Source: an uncultured Monoglobus sp.
GTDB lineage: Bacteria > Bacillota > Clostridia > Monoglobales > Monoglobaceae
Direction: 5' to 3'
Length of the DNA stretch: 64,000 nucleotides
Assembly (NCBI GenBank): GCA_947628795.1
Contig: CANRBF010000001.1
Coordinates: 62,001-126,000 of the forward strand
In this document: positions 1 to 50,432 of the stretch, piece after piece
Layout: every line of letters begins with the position of its first letter
Position numbering within the stretch: the first letter of the stretch is position 1
The notes under the pieces: generated by a model
Seen by the model: only the letters and a program-made list of their open reading frames with translations
Database searches by the model: none
What the model was told of the DNA's origin: nothing
Translations under genes and position numbers: made by a program

Positions 1-3000
1 TATCCCCCGCCTCTTCCGGCGGTGTTTCCGGTAATTTCCGTTGTGCCGTTCAAATGCAGTATTCCGGTATCGAAAGTATCTGTTCCCATGGGACGCGTGC
101 CGTTTACATAAAATCCGCCGCCGCTGTACACGCCGTATTCGCCGTGACCTCCGGCTGTATTATTCGTGATCTGTCCTTTGTTTATATCAGCCTCGGTGGT
201 GGACTGCACATAAATTCCGCCGCCGCAATGATAGGCGGTGTTTTCGGTCACGGTTCCGTCGTTCATCTCAAATTTCTCGGGAGTGTCGCCGTCTACCATA
301 CTGTCATAGTCGGTATAATTTCTGCCGCCGACTATAACTCCGCCGCCCGCGCCGGCGCTGTTGCCGGAAATAGTACCGCCGTTCATGACCGCGCTCGCTT
401 CCTTGATTATCGCTATTCCGCCGCCTCCGCCGCCGTCGCTGTCGATGTTAGCGTTCAGATCCGACGCGGTGTTGTCTTTAATATCTCCGTCAGTGATAGT
501 CAAGGTGGTGCCTTCTCCCTCAACCAAAATACCGCCGCCGTGATACGCGGAGTTCTTGCTGACTTCGCCGCCGCTTAGTTCAACGTCGGATCCATCTTTC
601 GCGTATACCGCTCCGCCGAGCGCGTAGGAACCATTGTTTATATTGTTTCTCAGAACCGCGCCCTCACCGATAATAAGCTTGGCGCCGCTTCCTGTGACCT
701 CAATAATCGGACTTTTCGCCTCAACGCGCTGATCTCTGTAACCGTCAAAAATTATGTTTGACAGCGTAAGCGTTGTGCCCGATCCGCTGACTTTTACCAT
801 AGTTCCTGTGAACATCGGATCGCGCATGATCGGATAATCGCTGAACCCTTCCATATTCCATGCCTCGGTTGATTTTACTTCGATCGTTCCCAAGACATAA
901 ATCTTATCATCCGCTGTTTTGCTTTCTATTTCCTTAAATTTCTCTATCGCCTTGGTTAAAGTCGCAACCGGCTTTTCCGCTGTTCCGGCATTATCGTCAC
1001 TGGCTCCGCTGCCGCCGACAAAAATACCTTTTTGTTCAAGTTTTTGAGCGATAATATTGCCGTCTGCGTCTTTCTTTATCTCAATATTCGCGTTAGCTTT
1101 CTTTACTATGATTTTTTTGAGTATATCATCGCCTATTGTCTTTCCGTTCGCATCGATCAGCTTTACCGAACTCGTACCGTTGTTAAGATTGGTAAGGTCA
1201 CCGTCGGCAAGAGTTACGGTCATAACGTCCGCGAGGCTCAGATCATCGCCTGCGGTCAAATACTTGCCGCTAGCCAACGTAACATTATTAACGGTTACAT
1301 TTCCGGAAAGAGTTGCCGATGCGCTACTGCCTTTGTGATCAAGATTCTCGACCTTTGCGCCGTCAGTGATATTAATTTTGCCAAACATTGCATTGGTTAT
1401 ACTCCCAACTTCTGCGCCGCTCGATACGGTAAGATTACCCATCATTTTTTGTTCAATTGTATCTACTTTCACACCGGAATTGATAGACAAATTACCGCCA
1501 TTTTTAATTGTGCTAACATTACCTTTTTTATCCGCTGTATTAATAAAAATTACATTGCCGTTACTAATGTCAAACGCTGCGCTGCTTTTTTCCTTAACCG
1601 AATGACCGTTTAAATCAAATTCAATAGTATCACCACTAGCATTGACACTAACATCTTCAATAGCGGTAGCTCCAATACCGTCATCATCGCCAACGATCAG
1701 TTTTACTTTTTTTACATTATTATCATCAACAACTGCGTGTTCAATAGCCTCGTTTATGCTATTGTAACTTGTGTTATCGGTCTCGGCAATTTTGCGATTA
1801 GGATTTGCTGCGGTAAGACAATATATAGCTTTTGTATCATCATTCCAAAGCCGATCTGTAGTTAAATCGTCACTTATTATATAACCCGTACTGTCGATCC
1901 ACACATAATCATCAAATTTTGCGTCAGGTTTCAAATTATCGTGCATTTTTGATGCAGCAGGAAATTCAAGATGTCCAAAATATTGTGGGAACCACAAGTC
2001 ATTTCCCAAACTGAACCACGGTTCGTACGAACTGTTATATTTGGCAGTATTTCCATATACCGCGCAAGTCTCATCAACTGTTAAGTAAATTGTGGTTGCC
2101 CACGAATTATATTGTCCGTTGTCTCTTGCGACAATACCGCCGGATTTATTGCCTGTATTCCCGGTAATAACCGTATTCTTTAAATCAGCTCGCGTCGGGT
2201 AGCTATCATTATTTGAATACAACTCCAAACCGCCTGCAGCAAAATATGATTCTGCTGCTTCCGCAATATTATCTTCAATGCGGCAACCGTCTAAAAATAT
2301 GTTAGTGCGTTCCGCCACTAATGTTCCGTAAGTTTTGGACCTATTGTTTGAAATAACACAATCCTTAAAAACAACCTTTTTTTCATTATCTTTCAAGATA
2401 AAATCAATTGCAGCGTTTCCTCCCGTATTCTCATTAAACACACAATCAACGGCTTCAAAGTCGGATGAATCTACATATACAGCGCTTACTCCCTGTGGGT
2501 TTTCATTATTCGAAATATGAACATGCTTAAGATTGATCGTGCTGCCGACAGCGCACAGCGCGGCTTCATAAGTGGCGTTGCCCGTGATACCTTTATTTTC
2601 GCATATTTCAATATAAGCGTCCTCTTCGGTTAATTCGTCCGCTGTTTTAAGCGTGGAAGCGTTGATATATAAAGCGCTGCCGGACGCACCGCTATTATTA
2701 AAAGTATTATTGTTAACATAGCAGCCTTTACCTAAGATCACTGTGCTATTGCTAACCGCAGCAATACCGCCTCCGCCGCCGGTTGTACCTAATCCGATAT
2801 CAGTAGCGCAGTTTTTGCTGACCAAAGTGTTTTCAATGGTCAAATTTGAGCCGGTCAGATATATTCCGGCACCTTGCTTAGCCTTGTTTTCGGTTATCTC
2901 AATGTTATCGAGGGTTATATCCGCGCCGTCACCGGCGTAGATCGCGCCGCCAAGATATTCACTGAATCTGTCCATATCCGTGCCGGTCAGTTTTCCTTTG

Positions 3001-3371
3001 GTCTCGGCGGTGCTTTTAAGCGTCACGGTTCCTCCGTTTATAGTAAAGATCGTTGTTGCCGGATCCGCGGGCGTGATCTTGTGACCGTTCATTTCAAGAG
3101 TGAAATTCTTGCCCTCGGATTTGATGTTTTCGCTGACATCGCGCAAAAGCGTTATGTCCGAGTTCCCCTCCGACACGCTGTCTATCGCAAGCTGCAGCGT
3201 ATCGTACTCGTTTTCGCCTATGCTCGCCGCTTTTCCGGCCTCTGCCGAGCCGACATCGTCCGGAGCCGCGCTAACTAAAACTATACCCCCCCCCGGCAGC
3301 ATTGTGAGCATCATCATAAAGCTCACAACAAGCGCCGACAAACGTCGGCGCCTTAACATAAATCTTTTCAT
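1..3371 (-). CDS. Large secreted beta-helix surface protein, partial (runs off the left edge)
   Basis: The frame is open from ATG at 3371 to position 1, about 1,123 codons, with no stop, so the C-terminus lies outside the window. The start is preceded by a GAAGG-type ribosome binding site. Residues 1-36 form a signal peptide: a basic start with several Arg, a hydrophobic core, and SAAP at the likely cleavage site. The body is a series of Gly-Gly-Gly-Ile and Asn-rich repeats of the type EVSKNSAYHGGGI that predict a right-handed parallel beta-helix, as in polymorphic-membrane-protein-like adhesins. Near residue 780 there is a KPVATLTKAI motif common in such bacterial surface proteins. No catalytic residues were recognised. 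The coding strand carries a run of nine G inside the signal peptide (3286-3294), and the frame is intact with nine. It lies downstream of another giant surface protein on the same strand. Adhesin or polysaccharide-binding roles are inferred from fold type only. Confidence 0.8.
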   Translation of the reverse strand, partial: MKRFMLRRRRLSALVVSFMMMLTMLPGGGIVLVSAAPDDVGSAEAGKAASIGENEYDTLQLAIDSVSEGNSDITLLRDVSENIKSEGKNFTLEMNGHKITPADPATTIFTINGGTVTLKSTAETKGKLTGTDMDRFSEYLGGAIYAGDGADITLDNIEITENKAKQGAGIYLTGSNLTIENTLVSKNCATDIGLGTTGGGGGIAAVSNSTVILGKGCYVNNNTFNNSGASGSALYINASTLKTADELTEEDAYIEICENKGITGNATYEAALCAVGSTINLKHVHISNNENPQGVSAVYVDSSDFEAVDCVFNENTGGNAAIDFILKDNEKKVVFKDCVISNNRSKTYGTLVAERTNIFLDGCRIEDNIAEAAESYFAAGGLELYSNNDSYPTRADLKNTVITGNTGNKSGGIVARDNGQYNSWATTIYLTVDETCAVYGNTAKYNSSYEPWFSLGNDLWFPQYFGHLEFPAASKMHDNLKPDAKFDDYVWIDSTGYIISDDLTTDRLWNDDTKAIYCLTAANPNRKIAETDNTSYNSINEAIEHAVVDDNNVKKVKLIVGDDDGIGATAIEDVSVNASGDTIEFDLNGHSVKEKSSAAFDISNGNVIFINTADKKGNVSTIKNGGNLSINSGVKVDTIEQKMMGNLTVSSGAEVGSITNAMFGKINITDGAKVENLDHKGSSASATLSGNVTVNNVTLASGKYLTAGDDLSLADVMTVTLADGDLTNLNNGTSSVKLIDANGKTIGDDILKKIIVKKANANIEIKKDADGNIIAQKLEQKGIFVGGSGASDDNAGTAEKPVATLTKAIEKFKEIESKTADDKIYVLGTIEVKSTEAWNMEGFSDYPIMRDPMFTGTMVKVSGSGTTLTLSNIIFDGYRDQRVEAKSPIIEVTGSGAKLIIGEGAVLRNNINNGSYALGGAVYAKDGSDVELSGGEVSKNSAYHGGGILVEGEGTTLTITDGDIKDNTASDLNANIDSDGGGGGGIAIIKEASAVMNGGTISGNSAGAGGGVIVGGRNYTDYDSMVDGDTPEKFEMNDGTVTENTAYHCGGGIYVQSTTEADINKGQITNNTAGGHGEYGVYSGGGFYVNGTRPMGTDTFDTGILHLNGTTEITGNTAGRGGG
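3286..3294 (-). repeat. Poly-G (G9) tract in signal peptide, in-frame state
   Basis: Nine consecutive C on the plus strand read as G9 in the coding strand (Pro-Gly-Gly-Gly). With nine G the signal peptide joins the mature protein. Any change not divisible by three would truncate the product. A matching tract sits at the signal peptide of the neighbouring gene (9961-9968). Confidence 0.85.
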
Positions 3372-3743
3372 ACAAACGCCTTCTTTCAAAATAATAAATA
3401 ATATTTAGTGATTATGTATAGTTTAAATTATATGTCGATTGATATTTGTTAAAGTTTGGCGGCATACAAGAATATGCCGCCGTGTATATTGTGTCCTATC
3501 CAAAGGTATGCCGTCACGGCATTGGTATATGGGGCGCTCCCAAATCTGCCTCCTCCCGGGAGGAGGTGGCTGCGGCTTGCCGCAGACGGAGGTGGGAACG
3601 TAGGTATTAGCGATTAGCTAATAGCGATTAGGATCCCCCCCTCAGTCGGGCTTCGCCCGCCAGCTCCCCCAAGGGGGCGCCTATTTTTGTCTCTCACCTC
3701 GAGGCGAGCCATATTCCGGCCCCTAGTCCCTAGGTCCTATTCC
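3372..3743. repeat. Intergenic region with dispersed palindromic repeats
   Basis: This 372-base gap has no gene. At 3461-3484 there is a perfect hairpin (GGCGGCATA ... TATGCCGCC). At 3549-3602 there is a CTCCCGGGAGGAGGTGGC-type element that recurs at 61246-61297. At 3604-3632 there are GCGATTAG repeats. At 3635-3681 there is a CCCCTCAGTCGGGCTTCG-type palindrome that recurs in variant form at 23439 and 50433. At 3710-3755 a short CCCTAG/CCTATT tandem stretch follows. A TATAAT-like box for the gene starting at 3371 lies at 3427-3432 on the minus strand. Confidence 0.7.
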
Positions 3744-6700
3744 CTAGTTCCTATTATATACCGAGGCTTCGCTGCCCGCGCTGCCGGATGTTGACCATTC
3801 TTTCTCAAGCTCCGCCCAGTTGCGCGGCTCTCTTATTCCGGTCCATGTCTCGTTGGCGGCTCCTTCCGCTCTCTCGTAGTCGTGCGTGTTCGTCGCCTCC
3901 TGTACCGCCGTGTAGTACCACGCGCTCGGGTCGCTGTTGTCGCTGAACGTTATCATTCCCTCATGCAGTCCTTCTATTCCCACATGTCTGTTCAGTATAT
4001 TGTTCACAAGCGTCATCGCTTCCGCTCTCGTTATATACTGATCCGGTTTGAACGTTCCGTCTCCGTAGCCGTTTATCCAGCCTCTCGCAGCCGCTCTCTT
4101 GATATACTCTTCCGCCCAGTGTCCGCTTATGTCGTTGAACATGTCAAGGCTTTCTCCGCTTCCGCTGTCGAATCTCGCCGCTATCGCCGCGAACTCCGCT
4201 CTCGTGATATTCGCCGTCGGCATAAAGCTTCCGTCCGGATATCCCGTCAGTATTCCCGCGTTGCTCATCGTTGATACAGCGTTGTTCGACCACAGGTCGG
4301 CGGGCACGTCGCTGTACGCGTTTGTCTGCGTCCAGTACGCCATTCTCGAATCATCGGTCAACATTCTGAAGAATATCGTCGCTACCTCGTCGCGGGCTAT
4401 GTTGTTCTCGGGACGAACGTCGCCCTCGGGATATCCAACGATATACGCGAAGTGATCGTCGCTGTTCAGCTGCGGCGCGGCCGTTGCTGTTCCGCCGACG
4501 CCCGGCTCTGCCGATGCCGCGGGCGCGGCCGTCGGTGTCGGTGTCGGTGTCGCGGTGGGAAGCGGGCCGGTTCCCCAGCCTCCGCCTCCGCCGAGGCTTC
4601 CGCCGCCGCCGGTGTTTCTGGGTCTCCATACCGCGTAGAGTATCTCGCCGGTATCGGGGATGGTGAAGGTATCATTCGCGGAATAATCGGGTATCGCTGA
4701 TCCCGGGTCGGTGGCCCAGCCGAGGAACGTGTATCCCGATCTGGAGGGTACTTCGCTCGTTACCGTTACCGTTGCGCCTCTTGAATACTCATGGCCGTCA
4801 ACGGGCGGTTTTTCCGTTGTGTCGTAGTTCAGGTCATAAAGAACCTGCTTATAGTCGGGTATATTATCCGGATATGTCACCGTTCCGGGGTTTGGCGTTG
4901 CTCCCGGCTCCGCGGTAGTCTCGGGAGGCGTTACTCCCGTGCTGCCGCCGATTATATCGACAGCCCATACCGCGTATACCGTGATGTCGCTGTCCGCGAA
5001 CGTTACCGAATCAATGATTCCTGCCGCCGCTTCTTCCTCCGCGTTGGTGACGATATTCTTGATCTGCGTCAGGCTCCAGCCTATGAACTTCGTCTGATAT
5101 CTGCTGAGTCCGTCGCCACTTTCAAGAGCCGCGGTGCTGCCGCTTACGTATTCTTTCGCGTCTGTCGGAACATTTCCCGTGCCGCCGTTTGCGTCATAAA
5201 CCAGCTTGTATGCCGCGGGAACCGCCGAGGGAATAAGCGTGGGTACGGGCGTATCCGTGGGAGCGGGCGTATCCGAAGGCGCAGACGTGGGTATCGGTGT
5301 CGCCGTGGGAGCTTCCGAAGGCGTCGCCGTGGGAGCCTCCGAAGGTGTTGCCGTGGGAGCTTCCGAAGGCGTTGCCGTGGGAGCTTCCGAAGGCGCTTCA
5401 CTCGGTGCTTCCGAAGGTGTTGCCGTGGGAGCGGGCTCGGGTGTGTCCGTGGGAACGGGTGTATCCGCAGGTGCGGGCGTGTCCGTGGGAACGGGTGTAT
5501 CCGCAGGTGCGGGCGTGTCCGTGGGTACGGGTGTATCCGCGGGTGCGGGCGTGTCCGTGGGTGCGGGCGTGTCCGCGGGAGCGGGCGTGTCCGTGGGTGC
5601 GGGCGTATCCGTAGGCGCGGGTGTGTCCGTGGGAGCGGGCGTATCCGTGGGAGCGTTTGTGGGAACGCTCGAAGGCTCAACGCTCGGCTCTGTCGAAGGC
5701 TCTACGCTCGGCTCTGCCGAAGGCTCTACGCTCGGTTCTGCCGAAGGTTCAACGCTCGGTTCTGTCGAAGGCTCTACGGGCGTCACCGGCGCTTTTGAAG
5801 GCTCAGCGCTCGGCTCCGTCGAGGGCTCGGCGCTCGGTTCCGCCGAAGGTCTTACGGGCGGTCCGGGCTCTGTCGAAGGCTCAACGCTGGGCTCTGTCGA
5901 AGGCTCAACGCTCGGCTCCGTCGAGGGCTCGGCGCTCGGCTCCGTCGAGGGCTCAACGCTGGGCTCTGTCGAAGGCTCAACGCTCGGCTCCGTCGAGGGT
6001 TCAACGCTCGGCTCTGTCGAGGGCTCAACGCTCGGCTCCGTCGAGGGCTCAACGCTCGGCTCTGTCGAGGGCTCTGCGCTCGGCTCCGTCGAAGGCTCGG
6101 TCTCCAGATAATCGGGAATACCGCTATTGTCTGTATCAGCCGCCCATACCGCGTACAATGTTCTGTCCTTGGTTCCCATAGCGAGAACCTTGCTTTCATC
6201 TTCCGCGAGCTCGCTGCCCTTATTCGGGGTCAAGTCTATAAAATTAGCGCCAAGCTCGGGAGCCTCTTCAAGCGGCTCCGCAATGTCCGCGGGCATATTA
6301 TAATTTCCGTCATTATCGGCCTCAACAACATACCAGCCGATAAATACCGCATCATCCTTTGTGAGGCTGCTGTCCGCGTTGTCTTCAACCGGAACGCCGA
6401 ATGTCTCAACAAATTCATTGGGAGGAACAAGCGAATCATTTTCGGTATGTCCGTCGTCCGCCACGGGAGGTGTATCTCCATTGTTATACGATCCGCCATT
6501 CAAAGCGTAAAGCTGCTGATGGAAGATGTTTATATTTACACGTCTTGTTACGGTTGTTTCACTACCGTTTTTATACCTGAATTTCGCACGGAATACAACC
6601 GTTCCGTTTCCGTAAATATTTTTAAGATTGATTTTATAGATCTTTGAACCGGTAAGAGCGCCGCCGCCCGCTTCGGATCCCTGATCTTGTATAAGTTCAA

Positions 6701-9700
6701 GGTTATTATCAATATTTTCTGTATCGAGCCACCAAACATTCGCGTCATTGTTGAGCTCCGCGGGAACTTCAACGCCTGTAATATAGCTGTCGTCATCCTG
6801 CATAATTACGCCGAGATTGATCACAGCTGCATTATTTTCTCTGTAGCCGCCGTCGTCTATATCGGTTTTGCCGGCCGCAAGCTCACCCGCGGGCTTTGCC
6901 GCGATAACTCCGCCCGGCTGTCTGGCTGTGTCGGTGCTGTCGCCGCTGTTATCGTCAATAACCCAATCCGAGAATACCGGTCTGCCGGCATCCATGTACT
7001 GAATCCTTACGCTTCCGCCGTCAGCGCCATCGCTGCTGAAGTTAAAGGGAGCGTATGACGAAACAGTTGTGGGCGAGCTGAGATACAATTCTTGCTCGGG
7101 ATCGTATTTACCGTCGCTGTCGCTATACAAATACTGCTCGATCCTTACAACGTCAGCGCCGGTGGCATGATTGAACGCCGATGAGGAAATATTCTCGGCA
7201 AGTCCGGGAATGGTGAACGTGCGGAGATTGGGTGTTTTGCTTCCGTCGCCGTTTGTAAAATCCATTGTCGGGAGATTTGTAAACTGCCTGTACGAGAAAG
7301 CGTCGTCGCCGATAACTTTTATTGACTTCGGAAGCGCGAAATTCTTAAGTTCATAGCTGTGGCTTGAATCTCCGCCGAACGCGCGATAGCATATTTCCTC
7401 AAGCTTGCTTTCCGGTTGGAACTCAACCTCCGCGACTTTGGTAAAGTAAAACGCCGAATCATTAATTCGGGTTATCTGAGGAGGCACAATAAGCTTGCTG
7501 ATACCGATTGTACTACCGTCATAGCTGCTCTTGCCGTCTGCTCTGTATTGATAAAACAGCTGAGTGTTCTCGGCAGGCTGGCCTATACCGGTTATATCGA
7601 CTTCTTCTTCGGTAACTTCATCCTTGTCAATATCATTCTCATCATTCCACTTGAGCTTTGTGGGTATCGTTAGCTCGATATCGTGAGATTTCTTATTACT
7701 ATCATCATAGAAAACAACTTCTCCGGTAACGCGGTTGAACTGCCATAAGCTCTCATCAACACCCGTAGCAGGATCATTTATCGCAGGAACCGTATACGGG
7801 GGATCAGTATAGCCCTTATAATGTATATTAGCGTAGTACGCACCGAACGGGTGCGATTCTTTACCTTCCTCCAATGTGGTCTCAAAGTTAACGCCCGTGA
7901 GCGAGTTAAACTCTGTGCCCTGCATATAGATATCCTTAAGCGCCATGCAGCGCGAGAACGCTCCGGAGTCTATAACCTCAAGCGGCGCTTTATTTGCTTC
8001 TTGAGAATAGTCTGTTCCGTCCTTCGCTTTTGTCCTGAACGTAACTTTTTCCAATTTGGTGCACTGACGGAACGCCCAGTAATTAACATTTACAACCGAC
8101 GCGGGCAGCTCGATTTCCGATAAGTCTTCGCACTTGCGGAAAGCGTATGTGTCTATCGTGGTTATGCCCTCGGGCAGATTAGTGATCGAAGTTATATCCG
8201 AATCCCAGAACGCGCCCTCGGGAATCTCCGTCATGCCGCTGTCCGCTAAGTTTGCAAAGTCAAGACTGTTGATCACCACGTTGGCCGGTTTGCTTCCGAA
8301 CGCGCCGGGAGCGATACCTGTTATCTTACGATATGTGACCGTATTGGTTTCACTATCAATAATCGGAACCGATGCCGGTATTGTGATATTGACCGTGCCT
8401 TTTTTACTATCTGCCGATGTTATATAGCTGTAATCCGGCTTATAGTCATTAAGAGGTGTAGATGTTTCCTCTGCCAGCTGTACCGAATCATCGGAATCAA
8501 GCGAAATACTTGCGGTAGAGATTGGATCGCTTTCGATTAACTCAATAAAGTAAGCTGCGAGCTTTGTACCAGTACCTTTTTGAATTATATAAGCCGTATT
8601 CGATACAACCGGAAATACAACTAAATAACGACTGTCAGTTTCCACATCACCATCTTTATATTCAGCGAGACTGTATGTTTCATCGGCCAATGTCTCCGTA
8701 TATCGTTTTACATCAAAGCTTTTCTCTGAATCATCTGTCACCTTTAAAGCGTCCTTGTTTAACGTATTTTCATTGTTAAGCACAACAACGCAAAAGCCAT
8801 CTACACCAGAGGTAAATTCGATTTTTCCGGAGCCGTCAATTTTTAAACCATTTGTAGATGTTCTTCCTTTATAAGTTACATTTGCTGCTTTTGCAGAGCC
8901 GGTAACAGTTATTCCGCCTTCGGCACCTGTATTTGCTATAGCATAAACCCCAGCCTCTACAGGTGTTCCGGGCTCAACTGTAGGCTTAGAAGGATCGGGC
9001 GTGTTTGTGGGCTTGGGCGTAGCTGTAGCTGTGCTGCCGCCGGTATTGTTGTTCAGATAATATCTGTAATCGTCTTTATTGGCTTTTTCATCAAAATCGC
9101 TCGGATCGTCGACCTTTCCGCTATTGTATTCCTTAACGTTTTTCAGTCCGTATATCTTTCCGTCCGCTCCTACAACAAAGGGAGAATCATTGCTATATCC
9201 TCTGGCTCTGTTCCAAGAAACATAACCGTTAAAGGCTCCCCAAGGCTGACCCTCAAGCTCACTCGGATATGAATCCGAGCAGTCGATGAAAACATCGGCC
9301 TTGCAGTTATAGAACGCCTGATTGCCAATCGTCTTAACGCTTGCGGGAATCTTTATGTACTCGAAAGCGCGGCAGTTATAAAACGCTCTGACTCCTATAG
9401 TAGTAATGCTCTCGGGCAGAGTTATTGTTTTCAGCGCCGAGCAGTCATAGAAGCAGTTTTCCGGGATCTCGGTCACTTTTGTGAGGTTTGACAAATCGGG
9501 CGATATAAGATGCTCGCCGTTGCCTCTGAAACAGCCTCGGCCTATAGTCTCGACCGAATCGGGCAGTTTTATCTCAGAAAAGTTGTTTGACGCGAAAGCG
9601 CGGGTGCCGATCGTTTTGATTTGGCACTTAAGGTCTTCCTCGTCCGGCGCAAATTCAAAGCTTGAGATCTCGCAGGCAGAAAAAGCCTCGTCCGCGATCT

Positions 9701-10057
9701 CCGTAACCGGATAAGCCTGGAGCTGCTCCTCGCCTTCCTTTTTACCCCAAAGGTATGTGGGGATCACAATCTTTGTCGGCGATGATCCTTGAAGATATAT
9801 AAATCTGTCAATGCGAACCGTATCATCGGGAAGCAAAGTTACGGACAGATTGTTCAAAAGTCCGTTTTCGGGATGTTCAACATCCTTGCCGTTGCTGTGG
9901 TCCCATGTAACATTGACGCCTTTCTGATCTGCCGCTAAGGCGATATCGGAATTAGGCTGACCCCCCCCGATGCAAAAACGGCCATGCCGGGAAGGGTGGT
10001 CATAACAAGCATGACCGCCAGCAGCAATGCCATCAGTTTGTTCGTCTTTTTTGTCAT
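3744..10057 (-). CDS. Giant SLH-anchored BspA-type LRR surface protein, frame off at a G8 tract
   Basis: The true start is ATG at 10057, with an AGGAGAG ribosome binding site and an excellent promoter at 10124-10152. It encodes a signal peptide ([20 protein letters not shown], then ...GMAVFAS). At 9961-9968 a G8 run shifts the frame and a TAG follows within about ten codons. With nine G (or six) the signal peptide would join the roughly 2,070-residue downstream frame. From position 9857 inward that frame holds BspA-type leucine-rich repeats (about residues 20-200, 490-720 and 780-940), a SEPSTEPS linker (about 1250-1400), a PTDTPAP linker (about 1400-1550), two InlB-like Listeria-Bacteroides repeats with FIGW/FLGW motifs (about 1550-1750), a Gly-rich hinge, and three SLH domains (about 1805-1970) with ITRAE signatures for cell-wall polysaccharide anchoring. 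The gene looks phase-variable and currently OFF; a sequencing slip in the homopolymer is the alternative. Confidence 0.85.
5200..5650 (-). repeat. Tandem repeat coding for PTDTPAP linker
   Basis: Short repeats of about 18-24 bases encode Pro-Thr-Asp-Thr-Pro-Ala units and related SEAPTATP units. This gives an extended, probably glycosylated or wall-spanning linker. The opposite strand stays open by periodicity only. Confidence 0.85.
5657..6107 (-). repeat. Tandem repeat coding for [12 protein letters not shown] linker
   Basis: A 12/24-base periodic repeat encodes Glu-Pro-Ser-Thr/Val/Ala units. The same linker type is coded at 33877-34221 in a second SLH protein, so the two stretches are candidates for slippage or recombination. 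Confidence 0.85.
9961..9968 (-). repeat. Poly-G (G8) tract, out-of-frame state
   Basis: Eight C on the plus strand give G8 just after the AFAS signal-peptidase site of the giant SLH protein. Codon by codon from ATG 10057, this tract reads Ser-Gly-Gly-Val and then meets TAG. One extra G would give Ser-Gly-Gly-Gly-Gln-Pro-Asn and enter the long frame. Confidence 0.85.
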
Positions 10058-10123
10058 ATAAACATCTCTCCTAACCTATAAATTTTAGCAATCATATAAT
10101 ATTGCCATGTTATGCTAAACTAC

Positions 10124-10152
10124 ATTATAGCATTGTTTAGATAAGTTTGCAA
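10124..10152 (-). promoter_or_regulatory. Sigma-A promoter of the giant SLH gene
   Basis: On the minus strand TTGCAA (10147-10152), a 17-base spacer and TATAAT (10124-10129) stand about 65 bases upstream of the ATG at 10057. Confidence 0.75.
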
Positions 10153-22985: not shown

Positions 22986-22988
22986 CGT

Positions 22989-23312
22989 GACGAGCATAAC
23001 GTAAGCCGAGTTCTGTATCAGATGATTATCTATCTTGGACGCGCGTCGCCGCGCGCCTCCAGCCACCAATCTCCGAAGGCGCCGGGCCGGCTTAGTCTTC
23101 GATTCAGGTGTTGCTCCGAGCGGGGTTTACATCAGCGGTAAGTCGCCAAACCGCCGGGTGAGCTCTTGCCTCGCCTTTCCACCCTTACAGTTATTTTGAT
23201 AACTGCGGTTTATTTCTGTTGCACTATCCTTGGAGTCGCCTCCACAAGCCGTTAGCTTGCGCTCTTGCCCTATGGAGCTCGGACTTTCCTCACGCATACG
23301 CGCGCAATCATC
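22989..23312 (-). ncRNA. rnpB: RNase P RNA
   Basis: Read on the minus strand, the RNA contains the universal blocks of bacterial RNase P RNA: GAGGAAAGTCCGAGCTCC, then CAAGAGCGCAAGCTAACGGC, GGATAGTGCAACAGAAA, GTAAGGGTGGAAAGGCGAGG, and near the 3' end AGATAGATAATCATCTGATA with ACAGAACTCGGCTTACG. The ends pair to form P1. It is the catalytic RNA that removes tRNA 5' leaders. A TATAAC box stands just upstream of the 5' end, embedded in the edge of a dispersed repeat. Ends are placed to within a few bases. Confidence 0.96.
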
Positions 23313-23322
23313 AGTTATACTA

Positions 23323-23484
23323 CGTCGCAATGCGCTACGCTTATTCACTTTCCTGCAAGCAGGAAAGCTCAACCGCTCCGCGATTGCTCCTTTTCCCACA
23401 AAACGCGCTTCGCTGGCGTTTTGCGGGAGCCCTGTTTACCCCTCTCAGTCAGCTTCGCTGACAGCTCTCCCCAAGGGGCGAGCC
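23323..23484. repeat. Composite intergenic repeat (D plus A families), copy 2
   Basis: Positions 23323-23432 match 17716-17830, and 23439-23484 (CCTCTCAGTCAGCTTCGCTG ... CCCCAAGGGG) is an A-family palindrome. The element abuts the rnpB promoter. Confidence 0.7.
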
Positions 23485-31926: not shown

Positions 31927-32019
31927 TGGCGGAGTTGGTGGGATTTGAACCCACGTGCCCGGCTTTACGGACAACACGATTTCCAATCGTGCTCGTTATG
32001 ACCACTTCGATACAACTCC
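31927..32019 (-). tRNA. tRNA-Ser (GGA anticodon)
   Basis: The minus strand begins GGAGTTGTATCGAAGTGG and ends CCAACTCCGCCA. The acceptor stem GGAGTTG/CAACTCC, anticodon loop TTGGAAA with anticodon GGA, a long class II variable arm, the GGTTCAAATCC T-loop, discriminator G and an encoded CCA are all visible. Confidence 0.95.
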
Positions 32020-50011: not shown

Positions 50012-50285
50012 CAAAAAACCCGCTCTCTATTTTTAAACAGAGGACGAGCTTCACCCGTGGTACCACCTCAATTCACCGCTGCCTCACGGCCGCGGCCTCA
50101 GAAGGTATCATCAATACCCATGTTCTGTGACGGGAACTCCCGTTGCAGCCTACTCAGACGGCTCAAACCCTTTCGGTGCACTGCTCGCGGAATGTATTCG
50201 AAAACGCTTCCGTCATTGCCTCGCAGCTCCCGGCAACTCTCTCAAGACTTTCACGCCTCTACTTGTTTCCGCTCAAACGCATTTA
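50012..50285 (-). promoter_or_regulatory. T-box leader with apparent tyrosine (UAC) specifier
   Basis: The minus strand carries the T-box sequence AGGTGGTACCACGGGTG (50053-50069) and the AGTAGA bulge (50258-50263). The stem I base is GCGGAA paired with TTCCGC (50267-50272 with 50186-50191). The specifier region reads GAA UAC A, with UAC at 50194-50196. A stem III element (CGTCTGAGTAGGCTG) and a terminator hairpin ending in T6 (50012-50050) are also present. Uncharged tRNA should favour antitermination and switch on the symporter gene. The specifier reading is inferred from loop position. Confidence 0.82.
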
Positions 50286-50432
50286 AGTATAGTATAATTA
50301 TATTAACATAAATTTTTGATTAATGCAAGAAAAATTTTATAAAAAATAATAATTTTTATTTTAAAAATGGCGCCCGTTTGGGCGCCCTGCAAATTTATTG
50401 GGAAGAAATTAATTTGTTTTTCGTTTTGCCGC

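Follow-up and report, generated by a model that had tools for sequence, protein, structure and literature searches.

What does it mean when a gene that begins as a surface-protein gene should runs, at the end of its signal peptide, into a tract of guanines that puts the rest of its coding sequence out of frame? The question arises in the window analyzed here, the 64,000-nucleotide stretch from an uncultured Monoglobus sp.; its genome is labeled G000 and the contigs of that genome C1, C2 and so on. Positions 9961-9968 of the window read C8 on the + strand and therefore G8 on the coding (-) strand of the gene concerned, gene A. The original prediction held that a promoter, a ribosome binding site and a signal peptide lead into this tract, and each of them could be located (Table 1). 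It also held that the G8 throws the long downstream frame out of register, as is indeed the case: the assembled frame ends after 40 residues, and from just past the tract a frame of 2,071 codons continues to 3744 without a stop. Frame computation confirms that a tract of nine G, or of six, restores one continuous protein and adds twelve to these ON lengths; the product is a single protein of 2,107 residues, while 8 or 10 G lead to truncation at 35-40 residues.

Table 1. Features of the window and tract-bearing elements elsewhere in the genus (window positions unless a contig or locus is named)
Feature	Position	Strand	Remarks
Gene A promoter, sigma-70-like	10124..10152	-	TTGCAA-17-TATAAT, TG before -10, 10/12 consensus matches; predicted
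Gene A Shine-Dalgarno, AGGAG	10068..10072	-	Precedes ATG 10057
Gene A signal-peptide coding region, 29 codons	9969..10057	-	Putative AxA-type cleavage site just before tract codons, by inspection
Gene A G8 slippage tract (candidate)	9961..9968	-	ON length 9; assembled length is OFF
Truncated 40-residue ORF in assembled G8 state	9935..10057	-	Stop ends at 9935
Gene A long frame	3744..9968	-	LRR_5 (BspA-type), repeat linker, Flg_new, SLH x2
Gene B, 2,499-residue SLH/FctA surface protein	1..3371	-	ATG 3371; continues beyond window to G000:C1:57875
Gene B promoter-like site	3411..3438	-	TCGACA-16-CATAAT, consensus match only
Gene B G9 slippage tract (candidate)	3286..3294	-	Inside signal peptide; in frame, ON
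RNase P RNA, class A	22987-23323	-	
tRNA-Ser(gga)	31927-32019	-	
T-box leader	50037-50286	-	
G9 in leader of 3,069-residue LRR/SLH protein	C1:12405		G000
G9 in leader of 4,975-residue protein	C2:169929		G000; SLH-like C-terminus by eye
G10 upstream of promoter-like site, gene of 4,036-residue SLH protein	C5:6522		G000
Tract at codon 11 of acyltransferase	C2:18027		G000
Tract near C-terminus of another acyltransferase	C12:32200		G000
Tract at gene end overlapping next start	C2:7253		G000
Leader ORF, poly-G and terminator units	L099, L101-L105, L110, L113-L115, L130, L134, L136, L156-L158, L162, L165, L166, L168		Sister genomes

The restored protein answers to the predicted SLH/LRR surface protein of about 2,000 residues. 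Domain searches detect LRR_5 (PF13306, E 4.6e-57) in three stretches, corresponding to BspA-type leucine-rich repeats, and Pfam SLH (1.4e-27) in two; the protein also contains a long Pro/Ser/Thr/Glu repeat linker and a Listeria-Bacteroides repeat (Flg_new), and the signal peptide was assigned by inspection. The final 160 residues of gene A (window 3744-4226, - strand) are identical to those of a 3,069-residue paralog upstream on the contig (G000:C1:3054-12260, L215), a pattern that points to a possible recent gene conversion.

The original prediction proposed looking for nine G in other genomes of the species, and considered that an invariant nine in all relatives would reduce the frameshift to an assembly error in a stable gene. 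We compared gene A with its orthologs from six sister genomes of the genus (rabbit gut), a comparison between species. In these assemblies, which are metagenome bins and so open to a one-base miscount of a run where coverage is low, the tract reads 9 in G009, G002 and G010, 10 in G004, and 8 in G006 and G003; with the 8 of G000, the gene is ON in three of seven orthologs and OFF in four. A paralog in G011 also has nine G. In the surroundings of the tract, TTTTTGC(A/G)TC precedes it and T follows it in all orthologs, and the start at -89 from the tract and the signal peptide are intact in 7/7. An out-of-frame ATG at -96, present in G003, G004, G006 and G010, was considered as the gene A start and rejected, the Shine-Dalgarno sequence being about 2 nt away and the frame encoding no signal peptide. 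When the GTDB contig collection was searched for the signal-peptide/tract pattern, seven records were returned, all from rabbit metagenomes (six uncultured Monoglobus sp. and one uncultured Clostridia bacterium); the collection yielded no second genome of the species in the window.

Downstream of the tract, the orthologs have open frames of 1,494 to 2,525 codons, which end at a stop or where the contig does. In the pairs compared, the first 300 codons give dN/dS values of 0.17-0.29. By these ratios gene A is under purifying selection, and because this holds also between two OFF copies (G006 versus G003, 0.20 over 296 codons), the OFF copies have not decayed. The tract itself is conserved. GGG accounts for 39 of the 1,010 glycine codons (3.9%) in 22 ORFs of the window, whereas TCG followed by GGG GGG is kept at 8/8 loci (the seven orthologs and the G011 paralog) and the run is never broken. 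Since so rare a codon persists in an unbroken run although dS in the pairs examined is 0.3-1.7 over the 300 codons beside it, these data point to selection for the homopolymer itself.

We therefore share the view of the original prediction that this is a slipped-strand contingency locus; inter-species lengths, open frames and purifying selection all support it, and we consider it highly probable that the gene A tract is a hypermutable contingency tract that mediates phase variation at the level of translation. We infer the slippage mechanism, its reversibility within one population, and a role of the protein at the surface or in adhesion. In the model that we favor, DNA polymerase would slip on the run during replication, so that a single G is gained or lost, and the 2,071-codon surface-protein frame would be fused to the signal peptide at no lengths other than 6, 9 and 12. 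Cells with nine G would export the giant LRR adhesin-like protein and anchor it to the wall through SLH, while cells with 8 or 10 would make a peptide of 35-40 residues and no surface protein. At 8-10 G the tract is rather short for switching to be fast.

The neighboring gene B carries a second tract, which the original prediction did not list. Its product combines four FctA-type stretches with SLH behind a putative signal peptide, MKRFMLRRRRLSALVVSFMMMLTMLPGGGIVLVSA, and its tract reads 9 in G000 (ON) and 10 and 11 in relatives (both OFF), three species in all. In other words, this assembly has gene A OFF and gene B ON, and if each gene is switched independently by its own tract, the population would be a mix of surface types. 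Window positions 3620-3760 are occupied by a G/C-rich intergenic repeat (gcgcccccttgggggagctg...cgactgaggggg) with flanks 'ctagggactaggg' and many further copies in the genome; this repeat is the source of many A-Gn-A runs.

Could runs of this length be expected by chance? G7 strings number 6 in the window against 4.0 expected, no excess over chance, and we rejected their abundance as evidence for the gene A tract. The two window tracts of at least 8 G, however, each lie within the signal-peptide codons of a giant surface gene, and these genes are neighbors; it is on account of position and conservation, not the G7 count, that we regard the gene A tract as not a product of chance.

The original prediction understated the scope of the phenomenon, since the gene A tract is one member of a poly-G set that spans the genus. 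Across 12 Monoglobus genomes, runs of the form C-Gn-T number 5, 11, 67, 7, 6 and 1 for n = 7-12, and runs with other flanks (T-T left out) number 90, 18, 14, 1, 1 and 1; only the former class peaks, at nine, while the other contexts decay with length. C before and T after are found in 67/85 Monoglobus G9 tracts, whether coding or not. The oriented motif C-G9-T, CGGGGGGGGGT, occurs 67 times in the 12 Monoglobus genomes versus 6 times in 88 other genomes; for the reversed control, TGGGGGGGGGC, the same 12 give two matches. One closed genome of the genus, G008, lacks any run of nine G. Of 87 tracts preceded by C or T and followed by T, 41 are found within an ORF of at least 600 residues or a short way upstream of one, compared with 13.6% of random window positions. 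Loss of mismatch repair was considered as the cause of slippage and rejected, MutS and MutL having been found in 12/12 genomes of the genus; given their presence, slippage would probably be slower than in Campylobacter.

The genes that carry these tracts belong to the classic contingency classes (SLH proteins, acyltransferases, cytidylyltransferases and restriction-modification systems). Those of G000 are given in Table 1, and in relatives they include giant genes and genes for a PMT_2 membrane protein, cytidylyltransferases, an amine-oxidase-type protein and a polysaccharide deacetylase; domain matches among the tract genes are to Acyl_transf_3, PMT_2, CTP_transf_3, DNA methylase, HsdM/HsdS and SLH. 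Poly-G also occurs in restriction-modification genes of relatives, namely a DNA methylase, an HsdM-HsdS fusion and an HsdS whose tract sits between its two specificity domains (L118, L129, L172), and these are candidate phase-variable systems by their sequence. One acyltransferase offers a view of how a tract comes and goes. The site reads TCA TCG GGG GGG GGT ATA in G000, and alike save for one silent change in G010 and G006, while the tract-free ortholog in G002 reads TCA TCG GGA TGG AAT ATA. The codon number is equal, so at this site the run arose or vanished by substitution rather than by block insertion. The idea that tracts originate when a 9-bp element inserts is not supported by this comparison, in which the single tract-free orthologous site has an equal codon count.

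These observations bear on several other ways in which an interrupted gene A might be explained. If the tract had been miscounted in sequencing or assembly, its true length would be nine and the gene always on. The length of poly-G runs is difficult to establish from sequencing (PMC9187656), the relatives' assemblies are metagenome bins, and most tracts of the C-Gn-T type are assembled at nine. Any single genome may be off by one G. Such errors would not easily account for four OFF copies of gene A and two of gene B, however: a length of 8 or 10 was obtained independently in four of the seven gene A orthologs, two species have 10 and 11 in gene B, and most other G9 tracts of the same assemblies read 9, in frame where coding. 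A miscount in G000, moreover, would leave the conserved, unbroken run and the variation between species standing, and we accord an always-on gene only a slim chance. Slimmer still is the chance that the tract is a recoding site, where slippage of RNA polymerase or the ribosome would yield some full-length protein at every length and the tract would set its level. Homopolymers, if long, are generally slippery for polymerases, which would suit recoding, but this mechanism should favor one conserved length where gene A shows 8, 9 and 10, and many tracts of the same kind sit in untranslated leaders.

It is very improbable, more so than recoding, that gene A is a fixed pseudogene killed by a single frameshift in this species; the assembled gene is frameshifted, as that reading requires, but 2,071 more codons follow without a stop or a second frameshift, and several species have this run at an OFF length while their frames are intact and dN/dS is low. 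To neutral G-rich sequence, with Gly-Gly-Gly past the cleavage site merely happening to be spelled GGG, we attach the least weight of all, and close to none. Gly-rich linkers are common behind signal peptides and would fit a neutral origin, but GGG is retained at all eight loci although it serves for 3.9% of glycines, C-G9-T exceeds its reversed control by 67 to 2 in the genus, and the tract-free acyltransferase ortholog of the same codon number indicates that such runs are not forced by the protein. Slipped-strand switching of translation thus remains the reading that we prefer for gene A.

Elsewhere in the genus, similar tracts are placed where they could act by other routes. Four sister genomes (G003, G005, G006 and G010) contain 20 elements in which a short leader ORF with a G run is followed by an intrinsic terminator, and in 20/20 exactly one of the three tract phases puts the TAG of the leader ORF inside the 5' arm of the terminator, even though distances range over 72-84 nt. 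At nine of ten such loci that were read further downstream, a secreted protein starting MRKRR(I/F)LSL follows. This arrangement suggests that the leader elements of these four species may confer attenuation controlled by slippage, in which the length of the tract would determine if the leader ORF ends early or extends into the terminator stem. A second leader family precedes giant genes (L225, L231, L230, L111, L149, L152) and consists of a Shine-Dalgarno sequence, a leader ORF, G8-G11 and a terminator-like hairpin; depending on tract phase, the ORF ends ahead of the hairpin or past it. In 5' leaders of giant genes (L215, L216, L095, L226, L229), the tract pairs with an upstream CCCTCCC to make one arm of a leader hairpin; for three examples the folding energies are -24 to -40 kcal/mol (z -2.9 to -8.7). 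Near gene ends (G000:C2:7253, which is L179, and L098, L116 and L126), one phase overlaps the stop with the next start as ATGA or TAATG, which suggests that translational coupling in a cytidylyltransferase gene region may be switched.

On this basis we tentatively propose, with somewhat less than even confidence, that Monoglobus possesses a genus-specific, multi-locus poly-G phasome, in which one oriented C-G9-T tract is wired to a signal-peptide frame switch, a promoter-upstream position, a leader hairpin, stop/start coupling and, in four sister species, an attenuator. Monoglobus is a gut genus of the Clostridia not known as a pathogen, and its surface, polysaccharide and restriction-modification genes are dense in poly-G tracts, of which 88 related genomes have hardly any. 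Should reads confirm this, the genus would serve as a tractable counter-example, and it would give one reason for surface genes being wrongly recorded as broken, as may happen in single consensus genomes of gut Clostridia. A literature search for Monoglobus and phase variation found no paper, and one for slipped-strand and Clostridia found general papers only.

What we describe would be a switch of a known kind, unexpected both in its lineage and in its scale. Cut-offs for poly-G phase variation in the field are at least 7 (PMC6321876) or at least 9 (PMC5953494), and gene A shows three of the features by which such repeats are judged, namely repeat length (G8, and 8-10 in orthologs), a frame-switching placement and variation between homologous loci, here those of different species. 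The nearest parallel in position is Neisseria pilC, where a homo-guanine tract in the signal-peptide region underlies phase variation (PMC5354566). In both, poly-G lies in signal-peptide codons of a large surface protein and single-base changes switch it on or off (for gene A, by frame logic), although gene A encodes an SLH-anchored LRR protein of a member of the Clostridia and is known here from sequence comparison. Its 8-10 G compare with 9-20 in Neisseria, and poly-G in pathogenic Neisseria has a mode of 9 (PMC5953494).

Closer in habitat are the sortase-pilus genes of Bifidobacterium breve, another gut commensal, where two loci carry G10/G11 tracts and switching was shown by maximum depth sequencing (PMC9187656). 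There, as in gene A, an intragenic G-tract separates a translated first ORF from a long second one that has no start of its own; replication slippage joins the two in B. breve and would do so in gene A. Unlike this actinobacterium with its two loci, Monoglobus has a multi-locus set that involves SLH proteins and is documented by comparison. In scale the set resembles the Campylobacter phasome, with many poly-G tracts per genome, a peak at nine (PhasomeIt gives 53% 9G and 26% 10G in Campylobacter; PMC6321876), surface and carbohydrate genes among the carriers, and lengths that vary between homologs. Campylobacter, however, belongs to another phylum and is without functional mismatch repair (PMC8355987), whereas Monoglobus keeps both MutS and MutL and 67 of its 85 G9 tracts share the flanks C and T.
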